Assembly (NCBI GenBank): GCA_903856085.1
Contig: CAIOAT010000010.1
Span: forward strand, 1 to 48,813
Length of the DNA stretch: 48,813 nt
DNA from: Candidatus Omnitrophota bacterium
GTDB taxonomy: Bacteria > Omnitrophota > Omnitrophia > Omnitrophales > Aquincolibacteriaceae
Direction: 5' to 3'
Part shown: one piece after another, positions 6,626 to 48,813 of the stretch
How the letters are laid out: each line of letters starts with the position of its first letter
How positions within the stretch are numbered: the first letter of the stretch is position 1
Notes under the pieces: generated by a model
Databases searched by the model: none
The model's input: only the letters and a program-made list of their open reading frames with translations
Told to the model about the DNA's origin: nothing
Made by a program: the position numbers and the translations under genes

Positions 6626-6671
6626 AAGGCCCGTAAAAAGAGACGGCCTGAATCACCTATGAACCAGATCT

Positions 6672-6712
6672 GTCCCGATTTTCGATTTAAAAATTTAACG
6701 GATAATCGGGAC
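6672..6712. repeat. REP-like 9-bp perfect inverted repeat with AT-rich loop
   Basis: GTCCCGATT (6672-6680) and AATCGGGAC (6704-6712) pair perfectly around a 23-nt AT-rich loop. The neighbouring text GTCCCC at 6759-6764 and the overall pattern resemble REP-type intergenic palindromes mobilised by RAYT transposases in other bacteria. No transposase gene is in the window. It fills most of the gap 6626-6775 between the suf promoter and the next gene, with nothing else recognised there. Confidence 0.4.
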
Positions 6713-6775
6713 CGACACTGATTTCCCCGTCTAAAGAACTGACGAAAATCATATGCCTGTCCCCTTTATTTCGTT

Positions 6776-7162: not shown

Positions 7163-7809
7163 GTCGGTCTCCGTTCAAGTATGGGCTTCGGCCTATCGAA
7201 CCGAAGCGTGCGAATCACGGCAAGAAACGAAGGATAGGTTAAAGGAAACCCGTCTTCCGTATCTTTGAACGTTATGGAAAAAAGTTTCCTTTGGTGAATC
7301 AGAACGTAATTAATGTACTTGGCTGGAAGCTTACCTTCCATGGTATCTTTGAACTCACCGGGCTTCAACGTATAAACACAAAATTTCGCTTTTTCCTCGC
7401 CCAGAAGGGTCACATTTTGCGTTCGAATATCGATCGATTCGAATTGCGGACTGAAGAGATCTTCCCATTTCAGTTCCTCAACGGTCCTAACTTTCTCTTT
7501 TTTCTGATCCGTGCTCGTCAAGGCCGCCCGACTCTCGGCATTGCTGAAACCGAGCGGAGTTGGACCGGCTTTGTCTTCATCAAGATTTCTCTCAGTAATA
7601 TGGAATGTGGCAAGAGTCCCCTTTTTCCCGTAGGAAACCACCACATCTTGAAACGGAAGTGGTAATTCGATCCAATCCTGCGACGGCTTGATCGAGAATC
7701 CTTTGGACGGGAGCTCCCCTTTTTCTGCACGAAGAAAGCCGCAAGGCAGCAACAGGAGGAAAATAAACAACAGGTACAGATATCTTCGGGACAAACTAGT
7801 CGACCTCAT
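7159..7809 (-). CDS. Secreted hypothetical protein
   Basis: About 216 residues from ATG 7809 (a TTG at 7830 is an alternative; neither has a strong ribosome site). A positively charged start (RSTSLSRR) is followed by a hydrophobic run YLYLLFIFLLLLPCGFLRA, a typical signal peptide with likely cleavage after LRA. The cysteine in LLPC could instead make it a lipoprotein. The mature part (GFSIKPSQDWIELPLPFQDV onward) looks like a PsbP/DUF1795-type single domain, which is a guess from its pattern and size. Its start lies inside the end of the NlpC/P60 gene (14-nt overlap), and its stop overlaps the next start. Confidence 0.72.
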   Translation of the reverse strand: MRSTSLSRRYLYLLFIFLLLLPCGFLRAEKGELPSKGFSIKPSQDWIELPLPFQDVVVSYGKKGTLATFHITERNLDEDKAGPTPLGFSNAESRAALTSTDQKKEKVRTVEELKWEDLFSPQFESIDIRTQNVTLLGEEKAKFCVYTLKPGEFKDTMEGKLPAKYINYVLIHQRKLFSITFKDTEDGFPLTYPSFLAVIRTLRFDRPKPILERRPT

Positions 7810-39011: not shown

Positions 39012-39417
39012 TGATAATTAGGCGTCCTGGTTTCGCTTTTGGATTTTAGATGAGAACCAGGGCTGCACTAATTTCCACTATAAAAATTAATGATAATTAG
39101 GCGTCCTGGTTTCGTTTTTGGATTTTAGATGAGAACCAGGGCTGCACTAATTTCCACTATAAAAATTAATGATAATTAGGCGTCCTGGTTTCGCTTTTGG
39201 ATTTTAGATGAGAACCAGGGCTGCACTAATTTCCATTGTAAAAATTAATGATAATTAGGCGTCCTGGTTTCGCTTTTGGATTTTAGATGAGAACCAGGGC
39301 TGCATTGATTTTCTATTTTTTTCTAATCGATAATCAAGCGTCCAAGCCTTTCCGTTCTTTTGAAAAATGACGCCTTGGACTGCACTAATTTCCACTATAA
39401 AAATTAATGATAATTAG
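39012..39417. repeat. Tandem array of five 79/80-bp hairpin repeats
   Basis: Units start at 39012, 39091, 39170, 39249 (79 bp each) and 39328 (80 bp), with a truncated sixth from 39408 that contains the TAA of the EAL gene. Units 1-4 differ at only a few bases. Each unit holds two alternating palindromes: P1, CCTGGTT/AACCAGG (39026-39032 with 39055-39061 in unit 1), and P2, CTAATT/AATTAG across unit joints. In the divergent unit 5, P1 becomes GTCCAAG/CTTGGAC and the joint P2 becomes TTGATT/AATCAA, so both stems are kept by paired changes. The stretch 38851-39011 before it holds only the GH13 leader. No ORF is supported here. Confidence 0.93.
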
Positions 39418-41567
39418 GCGAGGGTTTTTTTGGCGATATCACTCAAGAGGAACGGCGAGACGTCATCGACGGGGATGGGTTTACTGAAAAGGTAGCCTTG
39501 AATTATATCGCAACTCTGAGACCTCATGATCTCAAGCTGCTCCTTGGTCTCCACCCCTTCCGCAACAACATCCAGTTTTAAACTGTGCGCCATGGAAATG
39601 ATGGCCTGGGTGATGGCTTGGTCATCGGAATTGGTAGTCACATCGTCCACGAACGACTTGTCGATCTTGATCGTATCGATCGGGAATGTTTTGAGATACA
39701 TGAGCGAGGAATAGCCTGTTCCAAAATCGTCGATTGAAATATGCGCTCCCATATTCTTGAGCCGGCGAAGCGTCTGCGTAGTTTCCTCCAAACGATCCAT
39801 GATCGTGCTTTCCGTTAGCTCAAGGTCCAGACATTTGGGATCGATGCCGCTTTTCCGGATGGTGTCCCCGACCATATCCACCAAATTGGCATAGTGGAAT
39901 TGGCGGGCCGAAAGATTCACGGAGATCCGAAAAGATTGGAAACCTTGCTGGTCCCAAAGCTTCTTCTGCTCGCAGGCCGTCTTCAGGACCCATTCCCCGA
40001 TCGGATGGATGAGCCCCGTCTCCTCCGCGATCGGGATGAATTCCATCGGAGGAATGAACCCGAGATCCGGATGCTGCCAGCGGATCAACGCCTCGGCTCC
40101 GATCGTTTTCCCGGTTCGGAGATCCAGCTGAGGTTGATAATAAAGACGAAACTCCTTGCGTTCCAGGGCACGACGAAGACTGTTTTCAAGAACCAGACGT
40201 TCAAAACTATTATTGGCGATGGAGGAAGAAAAGAGCTGGAACCGGTCTTTACCCCGCTCCTTGGAGATGTGCATGGCTGCATCGGCATTCTTGATCAGGA
40301 TATCGCTCGTTTCCCCGTCGTTGGGGAAAATCGCGATCCCGATGCTGCAGCTTGTGAATAGCTCGTGCTCGTTGATAAGAAAGGGCGACTTAAAAGCCGT
40401 CAGAAGCTTATTGGCAACGTTCTCCGCGTCTTTAGTCTTTGCCACCCGCGGCAGCAGGATAATAAAAGCTCCTCCGCTGATACGCGTTATGGTATCGGAG
40501 TCAAAAAGCATCTTTACAAGCCGCGCGGAAACTGCCTTGATCAATTGGTCCCCGATGGGATGCCCCAAGGTATCGTTAATGCGCTTGAAATGGTCTAGGT
40601 CGAGAGCCAACACCGCTCCGCTCTCCTTCTTGCGCCGAGCCTGTTGGATAGCCTGATCCAGACGGTCAACAAAAAGATCCCGGTTCGGCAGATTCGTCAG
40701 GGCATCATAATAGACGAGCTGGTTGAAACGCTCCTTCTCCTTGGTCCGCTCCGTGGTATCGGAAATAACGCCGTCCACGTGCGTGACTCTCCCCTCCTCG
40801 TCCCGGACGGCACGTCCATGATCATGGACCCAGCGAAAATCCCCGTTCACGTGACGAACCCGGTAATCCACACTAAACAAAGCCCCTTCCCGTACAGCCT
40901 TTTCGAACGCATCCTGCACAAGCAGAAGGTCCTGAGGCAGGACTTTTTCAAAATAAGTGGCAATGCTCTGTCCCATGAACTCAGCCGCCGGAAGACCGGT
41001 GATGTCTCTGATCACGTCACTGATAAACTCCATTTTCCATTCCCCGGGTCCCACCAATTTATAGCGATAGACCGCACCCGGAATGTTCGAAACAAGGCTC
41101 CGGAACCTTTCATCTTTATCCTGAAGCGTCCGTTTGGAGCGCTCGTTCTCCTGATAATATTTTTGAAGTTGGGCCTGGGACTGATTGCGGCTGATGGCAT
41201 AACAGATGCTTTTAACCAGAAGTTCACGATCAAAACTTCCCTTAGTCAAATAATCCTGAGCCCCCCAGGCGATCGATTGCGCTGCAAGATCGTCATCATC
41301 GAGCGAGGTGAGAATGATGACCGGAACCGAAGGACACGCTTTGTGGACTGAAAGAAAAGTATTGAGCCCCTCGCTGTCGGGGAGCATCAGATCCAGGAGC
41401 ACCACATCAATGCCCCCCTCCCCAAGACGCTCAATCCCGGACTGCATGTGTTTGCTGCGTATAAGTTCAAAGGTAGGATCCCTGTTTTGGGACAAGCGTT
41501 CGTTCACCAGAATGAAATAATTCGGGTCATCCTCCACGACCAGAACCTTAAACGATTTTTTTTCCAT
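39414..41567 (-). CDS. REC-PAS-GGDEF-EAL protein, probable c-di-GMP phosphodiesterase
   Basis: 717 residues. Receiver domain (5-120) with phospho-acceptor D59 and lysine K109; PAS (about 152-278); GGDEF (about 285-445); EAL (about 460-710). The cyclase signature is degenerate: RISGGAF at 362-368 replaces R-x-S/G-G-D-E-F, so cyclase activity should be lost. The EAL catalytic set is intact: E492-A-L-I-R, N551, the ELTES loop near 583-587, D613-D614 in DDFGTGYSSL, KIDKSFV and EGVET. The inactive GGDEF may bind GTP as an allosteric site. It is a soluble response regulator whose cognate kinase is not adjacent. The stop codon lies within the tandem repeat. Confidence 0.95.
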   Translation of the reverse strand: MEKKSFKVLVVEDDPNYFILVNERLSQNRDPTFELIRSKHMQSGIERLGEGGIDVVLLDLMLPDSEGLNTFLSVHKACPSVPVIILTSLDDDDLAAQSIAWGAQDYLTKGSFDRELLVKSICYAISRNQSQAQLQKYYQENERSKRTLQDKDERFRSLVSNIPGAVYRYKLVGPGEWKMEFISDVIRDITGLPAAEFMGQSIATYFEKVLPQDLLLVQDAFEKAVREGALFSVDYRVRHVNGDFRWVHDHGRAVRDEEGRVTHVDGVISDTTERTKEKERFNQLVYYDALTNLPNRDLFVDRLDQAIQQARRKKESGAVLALDLDHFKRINDTLGHPIGDQLIKAVSARLVKMLFDSDTITRISGGAFIILLPRVAKTKDAENVANKLLTAFKSPFLINEHELFTSCSIGIAIFPNDGETSDILIKNADAAMHISKERGKDRFQLFSSSIANNSFERLVLENSLRRALERKEFRLYYQPQLDLRTGKTIGAEALIRWQHPDLGFIPPMEFIPIAEETGLIHPIGEWVLKTACEQKKLWDQQGFQSFRISVNLSARQFHYANLVDMVGDTIRKSGIDPKCLDLELTESTIMDRLEETTQTLRRLKNMGAHISIDDFGTGYSSLMYLKTFPIDTIKIDKSFVDDVTTNSDDQAITQAIISMAHSLKLDVVAEGVETKEQLEIMRSQSCDIIQGYLFSKPIPVDDVSPFLLSDIAKKTLA

Positions 41568-42959: not shown

Positions 42960-45900
42960 TTATCTCGTCGCCGCTTCCGAACCCACACCCGTCGGCGATG
43001 GGGCTGAACCCGTCCCGGCGCTCGCTGCCTCGTTCTGCTTGATCGGTGATGGCATCTTCCGGATCTGATCCCTCGCCGCATGGACCTGTTGAGCGATCGG
43101 GCTCACATTGAACGGAGGATTATGATTCGTAGCCCGCAAATCCTGCGCGGGAGGCACCATGGAAGCCGGGATCGGAACCACAAGCTTCGGCATTCCAACC
43201 GGGGCAACATTCCCCTGTTTCTTCTTCTCAGATCGCGGTTCTTTCAAAACAACCTGCTGCCCCACCAAAGAATGGGCCGCTGCCTTGCTTCCACGTCCAG
43301 GAGCCACGTAGACCGGTGCTGGGGTCTTCTCCTGGGTGATCTGCCGCACAGGAGGCTTTGCGGCTCCGGGAAGCGGTACCGTAAGAGGCGGACGCTCGGC
43401 CTCGGGCACGGGAGTAGGAGGAACTGCCAGACCGGGGATCGGAACCACAGGCCGCAATATCCCAAGACCTTCGATCGGCAACACATCGATCCCTGAGGTG
43501 TTGATGCTCGTGACTGGCGCGATCGCGAACCGGTTCTGATCAAAGAACGCCGGGAAATCAGCCGTATAGCGACCGCTAAACTGCCCATACGCCGGCAAAC
43601 TCACCGGGTTAGGGTTAAAATAGAGAGTCGACACGGAACCTTCTTCAAGAGGGGCCGTAGCTCCACCCGCCATGATCCCGTTAAAGAAAACCAATCCCGG
43701 AGGCGTATTGATGAACTGCAGGCTCTCCCGCGTAAAATTCCCCTGAATGTTCGCGGACAAAGGACCCTGCTTACCACCCGCCTGGAGATACAAATTGCCC
43801 GCAAGGTTGAGCTGCGTCTGGATCTGATTGGAAGCCGTCCCGACCACACCTCCAGCGATCAAGTGAATATCGTTATAGGCGATCACACGCACCGAGTTAC
43901 CGCCCTGAGACAGGATCGAGCCTCCGGCGATCAGGCTATTCTGCCCATTCCCCGCGAAAGAATGCCCGAGAAGAATATCTCCCGAAGATTCGAATTGGAT
44001 TGAACCGTTCGTGGAGTCGGCATTCAAAAGCGCGTCCCCTGTGTTCACGACATGAATGTTTCCGCCGGCCGTCAAATTCTGGACGGGCGCGTTCGTTTCG
44101 ATGGGATTTACACCAAGAATACCGATGTCTTTACCCGCAGTAGCGTTCCAAGTCTCGGCAAAGATATCGTTCGTTACCGCACCACCCACAGCGTCAGCAT
44201 CAAGCGTTGACCCATTGCGGGAGAACGTGGTTACATCCCCGCGAGTCCCGTCACTGAGATCGATCCCCTGATCCCCGCCGTCCGCGTGGAGCAGACCGAC
44301 CGTGAAATTATTCTGCGCGTCCACCAAGATATCACCATCTTCCGTTGTAACACGTGAAGTCGGTGTCATGGTCAGATTCGCGCTAGTATCCCCCGCGGTT
44401 CCACCGGGCCCCACCAGAGTCGCTGAAGCCTGATTAGCCGCTTTTCCTGTTGCATCATACCCGGCACCCAGAATCACATTCCCTGTTCCCGACGTAACGC
44501 CATTACCCGCCGTGCTGACGGTGGCCCCTGCGCCAAAAGTCATATCGCTACCGGAAACAATTCGCACATCGCCGTTCCCGCCTTCGGTACGAACGTTGGC
44601 ATTGAGCGTCATCGTATCAATTCCAGGTTTCGCTCCAAGAGCATAAAGGGTAATGTTCCCACCATCAAAATTCGTGATGGCACTCGAGACTGTCATCGGA
44701 CTCGCTGAAGTAATAAAAATGAACGAGTTGGGATCCAATAAAGCCGGGTCCTTGATCGTCACCCCAGCCACAGTCCCAACCCCGGAAAACCCGAGCGAAG
44801 TGGTAGCCGTCGGATCCGTAAGTGTCGTGACATCAAGCGCTCCGGTATTGAAAATCTGAATATCTCCGGATTGCGTAGCCGCAGCCAGCTTCCCGCCCTG
44901 GGTTTCAATTCCCTGATTTGCGGCAGGCGACGCATGAGTCGTACTTCCGATCCCGGTCTTGGCGCTGATCAACATCCCACCGGAAGCCCCTGTTTTAATA
45001 TCAACATCAGTATCTCCTTGATCGATCAGAGCCCCGGTCCGGCTCACGATCACCACGGCATCACTCGCATTACTCGAGGTCTGCACTGACGTGAGAAGGA
45101 TGTCCCCCCCCGCATCGAGGTCAATACGTCCGGTCCCCGCGTTCAAAATCGTCCCATCCGCGCCGGTATCCGTCATCTGGATGGAATCTGTGGCATCCAC
45201 GGCAATATCACCGCTCGTGCTGGTCACGTCCCCCTTTTCACTGAAGCGGACATCATTTTCAGAATCAAGATTGATATTCCCGCTCGTCGTCGTCACCGTG
45301 TTGTCAATCACGAGGTGGCTTGTCCCGACGGCTGACTGATCCTGAGAAAATAAACGAAGATTCCCGGAAGTCGCCGAAACCCCTCCCAAGGTACCCGTCA
45401 GAAGCGCCTTATCCAACACCGTAAGGGTTCCGTCCTTAGTGTAAAGATGAAGATTTCCGGCTCCGGACTGAGTAGCCTGGATCACATCCAGATTACCGCC
45501 CGCGGCATTCTCTGTAACGTTGACGTTGCCGGAAGTCGTATTAGTCAATTTCAAGGCCTTAATATTCGTATCGATAGCCCCCGCGCTTCCAATCCCCGTC
45601 ACGGCTGAAAGAGTTGTCTGCCCCTTGGCAACAATGTTCGCCGTGCCGCCATTCCCATCGATAATCGCCCCGCCCGCATTAATGTCGACGGCATCCGCGG
45701 CATTTCCGCTCAGATTCGTTGAGAGAGCGCTGGTCGTTTTAACGGAACCAAGCGTCACATTTCCTGTGATCGCATCAATGTCAATGCCCCCGGTTAAAGC
45801 GTCGCCGCCATTAGCATCAAAAACAGTCCCGCTCGCCATGGTCACATTCCGCTGGGCGCTTACTTCGATCTCAGCACCACCCGTGGCGGTCACATCCCCA

Positions 45901-48813
45901 TCCGCGCTAAATACCGCATCCCTTGAAGTTGAATCGAGATGAATTTTTCCTGTTTTGCTGGTGACCGTATTATTCACGATCAGATCATCAGTGCCCGAAC
46001 CTCCGGCATCCTGCGCCGAAAGTGTCACGGCTCCGCTCTTAGCAGAAACACCGAACCCGCCCGAGAGTCCCGCGACGACGGTCAGTTTTCCATCCAACGT
46101 GCGGATATCGATATCACCGGCACCCTGCTGATCCGCGCGTAAAAGGTCCAAACTACCGCCCGCTGCGACCTGATCAACCTCCAAATGCCCCGAAGTATGA
46201 TTGACGGCATCCAGTGTATTAACCGCCACTTCAATAGCGTCCTTGGCATTACTGCCATCAACTCCGATCCCTTTTTTGGCTTCAAGGATGAGGTTATTAC
46301 CCGTAATATTCAAAGCCGCGCCGTTATTGTCTTCAATGCGTCCGGCCCGGGCAAGAACCTTAACATCCCCCTTCGCTCCAGTGGCATCGCTGTCCGCGTT
46401 CACCTCGGAGATCTTGATATTCCGCGCGGCATCGATCAGCACATCCCCGCGCTGGCTATGGACCGCACTGCTACTATTCATGGTAATATCGCCGTTCGCG
46501 TTCCCGTTCTGATTCAGGGTAGCATCCGTATAGTCCTCACCGGAAACAACCGTGACCTTCCCGTTGCCAGAAGCGTTGATCAGAGAAGTATTTTTGAGGA
46601 CGACATCATTTCCCGCAACCAGGAGAATATCTCCATTTCCGCCGGTCGCATTCACCTGGATACCGCTGTTGACCGTCAGGTTATCCGCGCTCGAACTCCC
46701 CAAAGCTACCAACGTAATATTCCCGCCTGCGGTGCTCGAGACGTTAGAAGCAAGTGTCAAAGGGCTTCCCGAATCAACAACGATTCCCTTTTGAGCGTTG
46801 ATACCAGCAACAAAGCTGCCGGCAACCCCGCCGATCGTGAGACCCGCACCTGTCTGAGAGGCATTCGTCGCGAATACGCCGCCGGTCCCACCGTCAACCG
46901 CCATGTGGCCATCCGTTCCCGCTGTACCTCCGTAATCCGAGAGACGCAATTCTATGGCATTCGTCGCCGTTCCAAAACCTGTCCCGGTTTTAACATTGAG
47001 ACCGCCGGCCTTGATATTCCACGTCGCACTATTGAATTCTCCGAAAAGAGCATCATTCGCATCCGTCAATTTACCGGAAGTGCTAAAGTTAAAATTCCCC
47101 GTTCCGACATCCACCTGACCGATCGGGCAATCGCCAATGCAGTTAATGTAGATATTCCCGCTATTGGGAACACTGACGTTCCAGCTTCCAGTAGTGGTAT
47201 TGGTAACCTGAATGTCGAGATAACTGGTATTCACCCCGATTGCATCACTGGGAGAAGCTACCAGAGAGCTCAAATAAATATTCTTGCCGACCACATCCGC
47301 CACAGGCACTACGTCATCCACCACGGCTTCACGCATCCAGCCTGTGGAACTCAAACGAACATCACCCGTTCCCGCGTTAACAAGCCCAACCGGCAGATTT
47401 CCAATACCATCAATGCTGATATTGTTATTGCCTGAATTCGCATTCAAGGCCGTCGTCGCTGTTACGTCTACTTTGCTCGTGTCACCGATCGCTCCAGCGC
47501 TGTTCAAGTTCACTGTCGTTCCGACAACGTCCGCCGTGTTGTCATCCGTCACCGAATTGATCTTTCCCGTCGAATTAAGAGTCACGGCTCCGGTCGCTCC
47601 GCCGGTCACTAACCCAATCAGCGCGTTCCCAATACTATCAATACGGATATTGTTGCCGCTTGAATTCGCGTTCAAAGCCACGCTCGCTGCCACATCAACA
47701 GGGCTGGCACCGCCAATAGCTCCAGCTGACACTAGGTTCACGGTCGATCCGACAATATCCGCTATGTTGTCATTTGTGACCGAGTCGATCGTGGTCGTGG
47801 AATGCAAAGTCACGTCTCCCGTCCCGGCGTTCACTAACCCAACCTTCGCGGCGCCGATGCTATCAATGATCTGCGCGCCATTATCCGCCGTCGTTGTTGT
47901 GTTTAATGCCGTTGTAGCGGTCACATCCAACGCTTGGCCTGCTGCAGCTCCGCGAATACCGCCGGCACCTGCCGTCAAATTCACCGTAGCGCCTGAAACA
48001 TCAGCAATACCATCATCTGTAACACCCCGAATCGCGCCCGCCGTCGCTGTTGCAGTCGTGGTTGACGTGGAATATAACTTGGTGATATTCAGATCACCGG
48101 TCAAACTCGTAACGGTAGCATTCCCATTGTTTGCAACGACGCTTAAAACATTCGCGCCATTCGATTCATCAAGATTGATGTCCCCGGCACCCGTATTCGA
48201 GGCCGTGAGATTCGTCACCGTCGTATCAAGATCGATCCCCGTCGCCGCAGTCGCGTTCAGCGATGTCGCAGTCACGTTGTTCGCGGCAGCATTAGAATCG
48301 GTGATAGCTCCAGAGGTCGCCGTCAAGTTCACCGTCCCGCCCGCATTGATACTACCCACTGCAAGAGAGTTCGTGTCAACGATCGTTACGTCATTGCCAC
48401 TTACCACAGACACCGCTCCCACAAAATCATTTCCCGCCGTATCCAGGGTTATATTGTTAGCAGCCCCGGCATTTAGAGTTGTCGCCCCGGTGACTACGAG
48501 GTTTCCGCTATCCGTGATCGCGCCGTTCGCTGTCACACCAAGCGTCCCGCTCACCGTCGATGCGGCAAGATCAATCGCGTTTGTGTCCTTCAACGTCACG
48601 TTGTTCCCGCTTGTGATCGCCACCGTGCTGAAGTTATTGTTGTTATCCAAAGTAATATTGTTCCCGGCTCCGGCCGCGAGGAGAGTGCTTACCCCAGTCA
48701 CCGCCAGCGTACCAGCTCCACTATCCGTGATTCCGCCCGCCGTAGTCGTCAATCCCATTGTCCCGCCTACCGTGCTCGCTCCGGCTCCCGTGAAATCAAT
48801 CAAACCACCTGCC
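42960..48813 (-). CDS. C-terminal 1.9 k residues of a giant beta-repeat surface protein (partial)
   Basis: The frame is open through the right edge (the codon before residue I is a TTG read as Leu), so the true start is outside. The sequence is Gly/Asn/Asp/Thr/Ala-rich with recurring GDITLxS, NITLDxxGN and LTSTSGAI patterns, a right-handed beta-helix as in filamentous haemagglutinin-like adhesins. Near 47.3-48.0 kb there is a tandem repeat of about 76 residues. The last 150 residues are Pro/Ala/Lys-rich without a beta-barrel or cell-wall anchor, suggesting two-partner or type I secretion rather than autotransport. Only two cysteines are evident, in SIGDCPIG-like NCIGDCPIG. A terminator follows. 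Confidence 0.85.
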   Translation of the reverse strand, partial: AGGLIDFTGAGASTVGGTMGLTTTAGGITDSGAGTLAVTGVSTLLAAGAGNNITLDNNNNFSTVAITSGNNVTLKDTNAIDLAASTVSGTLGVTANGAITDSGNLVVTGATTLNAGAANNITLDTAGNDFVGAVSVVSGNDVTIVDTNSLAVGSINAGGTVNLTATSGAITDSNAAANNVTATSLNATAATGIDLDTTVTNLTASNTGAGDINLDESNGANVLSVVANNGNATVTSLTGDLNITKLYSTSTTTATATAGAIRGVTDDGIADVSGATVNLTAGAGGIRGAAAGQALDVTATTALNTTTTADNGAQIIDSIGAAKVGLVNAGTGDVTLHSTTTIDSVTNDNIADIVGSTVNLVSAGAIGGASPVDVAASVALNANSSGNNIRIDSIGNALIGLVTGGATGAVTLNSTGKINSVTDDNTADVVGTTVNLNSAGAIGDTSKVDVTATTALNANSGNNNISIDGIGNLPVGLVNAGTGDVRLSSTGWMREAVVDDVVPVADVVGKNIYLSSLVASPSDAIGVNTSYLDIQVTNTTTGSWNVSVPNSGNIYINCIGDCPIGQVDVGTGNFNFSTSGKLTDANDALFGEFNSATWNIKAGGLNVKTGTGFGTATNAIELRLSDYGGTAGTDGHMAVDGGTGGVFATNASQTGAGLTIGGVAGSFVAGINAQKGIVVDSGSPLTLASNVSSTAGGNITLVALGSSSADNLTVNSGIQVNATGGNGDILLVAGNDVVLKNTSLINASGNGKVTVVSGEDYTDATLNQNGNANGDITMNSSSAVHSQRGDVLIDAARNIKISEVNADSDATGAKGDVKVLARAGRIEDNNGAALNITGNNLILEAKKGIGVDGSNAKDAIEVAVNTLDAVNHTSGHLEVDQVAAGGSLDLLRADQQGAGDIDIRTLDGKLTVVAGLSGGFGVSAKSGAVTLSAQDAGGSGTDDLIVNNTVTSKTGKIHLDSTSRDAVFSADGDVTATGGAEIEVSAQRNVTMASGTVFDANGGDALTGGIDIDAITGNVTLGSVKTTSALSTNLSGNAADAVDINAGGAIIDGNGGTANIVAKGQTTLSAVTGIGSAGAIDTNIKALKLTNTTSGNVNVTENAAGGNLDVIQATQSGAGNLHLYTKDGTLTVLDKALLTGTLGGVSATSGNLRLFSQDQSAVGTSHLVIDNTVTTTSGNINLDSENDVRFSEKGDVTSTSGDIAVDATDSIQMTDTGADGTILNAGTGRIDLDAGGDILLTSVQTSSNASDAVVIVSRTGALIDQGDTDVDIKTGASGGMLISAKTGIGSTTHASPAANQGIETQGGKLAAATQSGDIQIFNTGALDVTTLTDPTATTSLGFSGVGTVAGVTIKDPALLDPNSFIFITSASPMTVSSAITNFDGGNITLYALGAKPGIDTMTLNANVRTEGGNGDVRIVSGSDMTFGAGATVSTAGNGVTSGTGNVILGAGYDATGKAANQASATLVGPGGTAGDTSANLTMTPTSRVTTEDGDILVDAQNNFTVGLLHADGGDQGIDLSDGTRGDVTTFSRNGSTLDADAVGGAVTNDIFAETWNATAGKDIGILGVNPIETNAPVQNLTAGGNIHVVNTGDALLNADSTNGSIQFESSGDILLGHSFAGNGQNSLIAGGSILSQGGNSVRVIAYNDIHLIAGGVVGTASNQIQTQLNLAGNLYLQAGGKQGPLSANIQGNFTRESLQFINTPPGLVFFNGIMAGGATAPLEEGSVSTLYFNPNPVSLPAYGQFSGRYTADFPAFFDQNRFAIAPVTSINTSGIDVLPIEGLGILRPVVPIPGLAVPPTPVPEAERPPLTVPLPGAAKPPVRQITQEKTPAPVYVAPGRGSKAAAHSLVGQQVVLKEPRSEKKKQGNVAPVGMPKLVVPIPASMVPPAQDLRATNHNPPFNVSPIAQQVHAARDQIRKMPSPIKQNEAASAGTGSAPSPTGVGSEAATR
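47340..48010. repeat. About 225-228-bp tandem repeat inside the giant protein gene
   Basis: Similar blocks recur at 47401, 47629 and about 47854 (plus-strand text CCAATACCATCA, CCAATACTATCA, CCGATGCTATCA). They correspond to a repeat of about 76 residues with the pattern SVTDDN-ADVVG-TVNL-SAGAIG and ending LNANSGNN. Third-position differences show it is not a very recent duplication. Confidence 0.75.

Follow-up and report, generated by a model that had tools for sequence, protein, structure and literature searches.

The window is one entire contig (48.8 kb) of a draft genome that totals 2.36 Mb and whose KdtA gene has its closest named matches among Candidatus Omnitrophota MAGs. The repeat array at its positions 39012-39421 is very probably a run of five stacked copies of an approximately 80-bp non-autonomous mobile palindromic element composed of two adjacent hairpins and a linker that bears a trinucleotide. 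We put the probability of this reading at about 85%. What the array repeats is not an RNA element particular to this locus. All of the genomes that were compared are draft MAGs.

Architecture of the array and covariation of its stems

The array occupies the space between a gene of the alpha-amylase family (PF00128) and a response-regulator/PAS/GGDEF/EAL gene, as named by Pfam, and comprises five two-hairpin units of 79-80 bp each, arranged head-to-tail on the plus strand. Direct repeats of 79 bp starting at 39012, 39091, 39170 and 39249 were 100, 99, 96 and 66% identical, and the joint segments followed one another at 79, 79, 79 and 80 bp across the array, in agreement with the five evenly spaced units that an earlier note on this DNA had described. 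In each unit, hairpin A (a stem of up to 9 bp and a loop of about 22 nt) is followed by a linker and, 3′ of the linker, by hairpin B, whose stem is 6 bp or longer. From the sequence and the register of the repeats, the array opens on the left with a truncated B hairpin (39012-39023, plus strand), made of the 3′ arm AATTAG and GC, which precedes unit 1. Unit 1 (39022-39104; 85.2 bits with R1, a covariance model built from ten units) consists of hairpin A at 39024-39063, TGCA and hairpin B at 39068-39100. Its A stem, P1, is formed by GTCCTGGTT and AACCAGGGC (39024-39032 paired with 39055-39063), and its B stem, P2, by CTAATT and AATTAG (39068-39073 paired with 39095-39100). The same P1 recurs in units 2 (39101-39183; 84.2 bits), 3 (39180-39262; 83.3 bits) and 4 (39259-39341; 76.1 bits), the last of which carries a divergent P2 at the fourth joint, TTGATT/AATCAA (39305-39310 paired with 39332-39337). 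Unit 5 (39338-39421) combines a divergent P1, GTCCAAG/CTTGGAC (39340-39346 paired with 39374-39380), with a standard hairpin B at 39385-39417. Because P2 is back to CTAATT/AATTAG at this last joint, divergence is confined to the fourth joint and the fifth P1; in both of them the two arms have changed together and still pair, as the earlier note had observed. That unit 5 might be an unrelated palindrome had also been considered. With 82.5 bits it is a typical member of the family, and pattern search found its A stem on six other contigs of the source genome (GTCCAAG..CTTGG at C3, C5, C12, C15, C16 and C50).

The array was correctly described as abutting the end of the EAL gene (39414-41567, minus strand); indeed, its stop codon TAA (39414-39416, minus strand), assigned from the ORF, Pfam and an ortholog alignment, sits within the 3′ arm of the last P2. 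The proposal that pairing within units and across joints creates two mutually exclusive chains of hairpins stood only in part: P1 and P2 lie next to each other and can form together, and cross-joint pairing of P1 is possible only since identical units are stacked. Folding of the whole array as RNA gave pairing that mixed the units. Folded as single-stranded DNA, the array units had minimum free energies modestly better than those of shuffles (z about -1 to -2), and other copies of the family reached z values down to -5.7. Near the contig end, the window also encodes a repetitive protein of 1947 aa (42960-48803, minus strand) in which G, N, T, A and D are abundant and which resembles large proteins of the surface or filamentous kind.

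Analysis of 88 source-genome copies aligned to R1, an alignment that was fitted to the model and hence leans towards the structure, showed that 88.8% of the cells pair and that 14 of the 15 stem pairs underwent compensatory changes. Both sides had changed in 292 cells, compared to 107.5 ± 15.9 in shuffled alignments, and the signal collapsed to at most 47 double-change cells when the arms were slid by 1-3 columns, although both controls leave some relatedness among the copies. The 10-copy alignment (A1) gave 89.9% pairing and 17 double-change cells, compared to 6.7 after shuffling. An effect this large, together with the outcome of the slid controls, makes chance an implausible cause of the stem pairing, and the suggestion that pairing rather than sequence has been selected is upheld by the covariation across the 88 copies. 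An array without covariation in related genomes, which the earlier note would have taken as a refutation, was not what the relatives showed: they lack the array itself, and the unit is present in them in many copies whose stems covary. We propose that the stems are maintained because a copy that cannot pair would be unable to move, and not for a functional RNA at the locus.

Dispersed copies, empty sites and gene contexts

Both a covariance model and a search for other genomic copies had been recommended in the earlier note. With R1, a dispersed family was located that numbers at least 82 copies in the source genome at E<0.01 (150 of 988 candidates were scored). The copies analysed here were drawn from the R1 hits and the sequence surrounding them. 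The window holds a second, degenerate copy at 6670-6756 (plus strand; 35.2 bits, E=2.8e-5). Five congeners contained 35-75 copies each at E<0.001, genera g12 and g17 of the same family contained 8-37, genus g29 of the order up to 14, and few or none were found elsewhere. Across the phylum, 20 of 285 genomes had a match at E<1e-4, few candidates being scored per genome and the counts being floors. The distribution of the element is patchy beyond the genus. The copies are organised as A-B units, as inverted pairs and as the five-unit stack. Searches for the element in phages and plasmids returned nothing, and neither did a search of viral contigs for two conserved 21-base patterns. The open-access literature yielded no relevant publication on Omnitrophota repeats of the palindromic or miniature inverted type.

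Orthologous stretches were compared within the genus after searches with DNA stretches of 14.6 and 19.8 kb. Matches were collinear and interrupted at the elements, and the orthologous sites in congeners were either empty or held one unit of about 84 bp or multiples of it. The copy in dus was missing in all five congeners (an 84-bp difference), which argues for gain at this site. The insert in kdtA was present in one relative (L151) and absent in five others, with different extra sequence at this position in the remaining ones. A 242-bp cluster of units beside an rph-like gene was missing in congeners G001 and G005. Conversely, G001 carries an extra unit (L135:6152) with an ATA repeat (CTA in the A-B sense) at a site that is empty in the source genome, and G005 carries one (L140:6234) flanked by a CTG repeat. 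One unit was nested within an older unit. The array of the window was missing in both G001 and G005, where the conserved sequence of the flanking genes lies 143 and 121 bp apart, and the EAL gene of G005 ends in GCC TGA (CTCAGGCGAG on the plus strand), compared to GCC TAA within the element arm in the source genome. Arrays might grow by repeated insertion or by unequal exchange at the joint.

Other insertions were seen in the genus as well. A second, unrelated two-hairpin repeat of about 75 bp (L121:1500-1570, 2704-2788 and 7369-7449; L129:1232-1307), exemplified by GTACCG..CGGTAC followed by ACTGTT..AACAGT and often accompanied by a motif resembling TAAAAT(A)AATAG, likewise varies between present and absent across orthologous sites. 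G001 and G005, but not the source genome, also share an insertion of a third kind, about 114 bp long (GTCAATGCGCCATTCAACGGG...; L129:6330-6547, L131:2207-2325), which adjoins an R1 element in G001.

The gene context of the scored source-genome copies was judged by a crude ORF call, according to which 57 copies are intergenic and 16 lie within predicted ORFs, some of which are doubtful. Between co-directional genes there was no strand bias, with 21 sense and 17 antisense copies (p=0.63). Copies between divergent genes numbered 15, and those between convergent genes were rarer (4). Copies were found in the conserved proteins NadE, Dus, KdtA, a TrmA-like methyltransferase, TatD, RnfC, UvrA and an AddA-like nuclease, and are in-frame in at least the first seven of these, the names UvrA and AddA-like resting on sequence motifs and partial Pfam matches. 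The insert is read in a common frame in NadE, KdtA and RnfC (xVPxPINFxxxEIGAVQ..), and UvrA and TatD share another. We propose that in-frame insertions (84 bp, or 28 codons) and insertions at start or stop codons survive because they would leave the host protein functional. At queF (L083:930-1060), the element of the source genome follows TATGACG and ends in AAGGAGAATTATGGCG, with the start codon of the gene at the element end; its B hairpin holds both a Shine-Dalgarno-like AAGGAG and this start codon. In G001, where the start of queF reads ..TATCTATGACG.., a TATAAT-like box lies a few bases ahead of it; with this box right before the ATG, the gene is seemingly leaderless there.

A cis-acting RNA element, in which the RNA hairpins would be selected at each site for 3′-UTR stabilisation, termination or translational control, would agree with the covarying stems, with the position of the array at the 3′ end of a gene and with the queF hairpin, and individual copies may have been co-opted as RNA signals. 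However, copies of the family show no strand preference and lie within coding frames, and congeners lack many of the insertions at orthologous genes as well as the array, even though both of its flanking genes are present. Neither the window at gathering threshold nor the element at E<0.1 matched Rfam. All in all, an RNA element is an improbable explanation, and the RNA 3′ element put forward in the earlier note is disfavoured by these observations. The same dispersal bears on an array of protein-binding sites or of integron-like attC recombination sites. The regular spacing and the palindromes would suit either one, but the units are contiguous, with no cassette gene or ORF between them, and single copies are scattered genome-wide and inserted in unrelated genes, so that we regard this explanation as extremely improbable; the attC reading was dropped because the units contain no cassette and also occur singly. 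Among the functions proposed before, recombination sites come closest, in that mobile insertions occur at defined sites, although an integron-like attC array was not what we found.

Target trinucleotides and the linker

Flanks were analysed in 57 copies belonging to the class that ends in ..GG[GA]A. The trinucleotide 5′ of hairpin A was the same as that 3′ of hairpin B in 36 of them, compared to a permutation expectation of 10.8 ± 2.8 and a maximum of 23 in 5000 permutations. The trinucleotides at the hairpin feet varied (CTA, CCG, CTG, CAG and CCA) and went together with the linker: TTG was accompanied by CTA on both sides in 13 of 17 copies, CGG by CCG in 10 of 14, CTG by CTG in 5 of 11, CAG by CAG in 4 of 9 and TGG by CCA in 2 of 4. 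The outer positions of linker and target were Watson-Crick in about 50 and 54 of the 57 copies, and the middle position was C-G, T.T or A.A and often mismatched. Because the middle base is often T.T or A.A, the match is not simple base pairing, and in the CTG and CAG classes the linker is identical to the flank. In a separate class, with stems ending in ..CAGGCG or CATGGCG, the flanking repeats are longer or ambiguous. One subclass, with B stems ATGATT/AATCAT, ends in CATGGCG, often has CATGGCG on the left too and often lies at gene starts (L048, L082, L083, L090, L101, L105, L106 and L109).

The covariation between linker and target suggests target recognition of the IS200/IS605 kind; in part or in whole, it could come from subfamily inheritance or from stepwise insertion of single hairpins. 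In the mechanism that we propose, the DNA of the element would fold as a single strand, be recognised by a transposase supplied in trans and move in this form, and the trinucleotide between the hairpins would help to select the target trinucleotide, like the guides of IS200/IS605. A fuller version, advanced tentatively and as possible rather than probable, is that this trinucleotide is the guide that chooses the target and that natural guide changes have re-aimed the ~80-bp element at CTA, CCG, CTG, CAG or CCA, a single-strand transposase mobilising it in trans and start and stop signals of genes being moved into element DNA.

The flanking repeats could also be those of a MITE whose parent was a DDE insertion sequence with target duplications of 3 bp. 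Such an origin would account for a short non-coding element with 3-bp repeats on its flanks and short inverted ends (YCC/GGR). The target-site duplication of a MITE was in fact found, as equal flanks and as filled and empty sites, but equal flanks cannot separate duplication from an IS605-type match. The terminal inverted repeats span only about 3 bp, where 10 bp or more would be expected, no parent insertion sequence was found, and what is conserved is two internal hairpins with freely changing stems. DDE transposases are not known to depend on such internal hairpins. As it also leaves the linker-target covariation unexplained, a MITE origin is unlikely.

Relation to known elements and candidate enzymes

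Palindromic insertions that keep the reading frame are known above all from Rickettsia. Invasion of this kind is the hallmark of the Rickettsia palindromic elements, or RPEs (Ogata et al. 2000; reviews PMC2229807 and PMC10969869). RPEs and the element described here are alike in being palindromic non-autonomous repeats of about 100 bp, with several families per genome, in-frame copies in conserved genes and no known transposase. In-frame insertion in conserved protein genes, the RPE trait, was found here too, with empty relatives for kdtA and dus. Compared by description, the two differ in their host phyla, which are unrelated, and in having two adjacent hairpins here versus one long stem-loop in RPEs. 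In addition, the Omnitrophota element shows linker-target covariation and has 3-bp flanking repeats, whereas the target duplication of RPEs is listed as unknown (PMC2229807).

Paired hairpins and tandem arrays are the hallmark of REP/BIME sequences (PMC2817692), which resemble our element in their paired hairpin modules, mosaic or tandem arrays, compensatory changes, high copy number and patchy distribution (PMC2817692, PMC3733652). In contrast, the Omnitrophota element lacks the unpaired GTAG/CGTC foot tag of the REP classes (PMC3733652), CGTC arising in the window only at the junction of GCG with TCC. Its loops of about 20-25 nt compare with 4-5 nt in CGTC and 2-20 nt in GTAG REPs (PMC2817692, PMC3733652), and it has many in-gene copies and no element-flanked RAYT that we could find. 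On the basis of these comparisons, we take the element to be REP/BIME-like in architecture and RPE-like in its invasion of genes, and a member of neither named family. Since the REP tags GTAG/CGTC do not fit, it is better referred to as a kind of palindromic mobile element.

As an independent and polymorphic family of an uncultured phylum, with both filled and empty orthologous sites, the element represents a natural system for studying how such elements move. With it one can study the tolerance of proteins for 28-residue insertions and the possible setting of the target by a short guide inside the element. When genomes are annotated, in-frame inserts of this kind, start codons that have shifted and tandem arrays are to be read as element DNA and not as conserved protein or RNA features.

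IS608 is described as recognising its target by base pairing and as re-programmable (PMC5934647). IS200/IS605 elements share with ours the hairpins close to their ends, and in them a short stretch of the element predicts the target, as the linker may do here; they differ in using a tetranucleotide rather than a trinucleotide; in our element, moreover, one linker serves two hairpins. The Omnitrophota element also differs in its non-canonical middle position and in having no tnpA. MITEs such as Correia/NEMIS, ERIC and YPAL (PMC2229807) are similarly small, non-coding and polymorphic, with target repeats, and some are fused in-frame to genes, but the Omnitrophota element has neither long terminal inverted repeats nor TA ends.

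No mobilising enzyme was identified for the element. The Y1 transposase domain (PF01797) was not detected in the source genome or in G004, and most relatives have it, whether or not they contain the element. The closest Y1 subgroup (protein from G003) is found mainly in element-bearing genomes (G002, G003, G016, G021, G025, and G026 with one copy) and also in G012 and G015, both without element copies. In G002 and G003, the genes of this subgroup are bounded by another palindrome, ACACCCGGTGTG, with ordinary R1 copies a few hundred bp away, two of them near one Y1 gene in G003; homologues elsewhere had no R1 copy within about 1 kb. No RAYT gene flanked by inverted element copies was seen among the Y1 genes examined. 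These results bear on whether the array is a classic REP/BIME mobilised by a RAYT (Y1 tyrosine transposase). Its hairpin pairs, mosaic arrays and BIME-2-like tandem stacking fit the architecture described for such elements (PMC2817692), and the best RAYT subgroup favours element-bearing genomes. However, with no GTAG or CGTC tag, no detectable Y1 gene in two of the genomes concerned and Y1 genes that are flanked by their own palindromes and mostly have no R1 copy nearby, we consider this possibility doubtful.

The Y1 gene of G003 that has copies on both sides was considered as the mobiliser and dropped, the gene and its homologues being bounded by palindromes of their own. Across this subgroup (about 220 aa; L175:760-1560, L174:760-1570 and L179-L185), the bounding palindrome was different in each genome examined, the palindromes including, besides the one already given, TGTCAAATCC, TTCGACACCG and CAACCCCCGGGGTTG, as if enzyme and bounding palindrome co-evolved.
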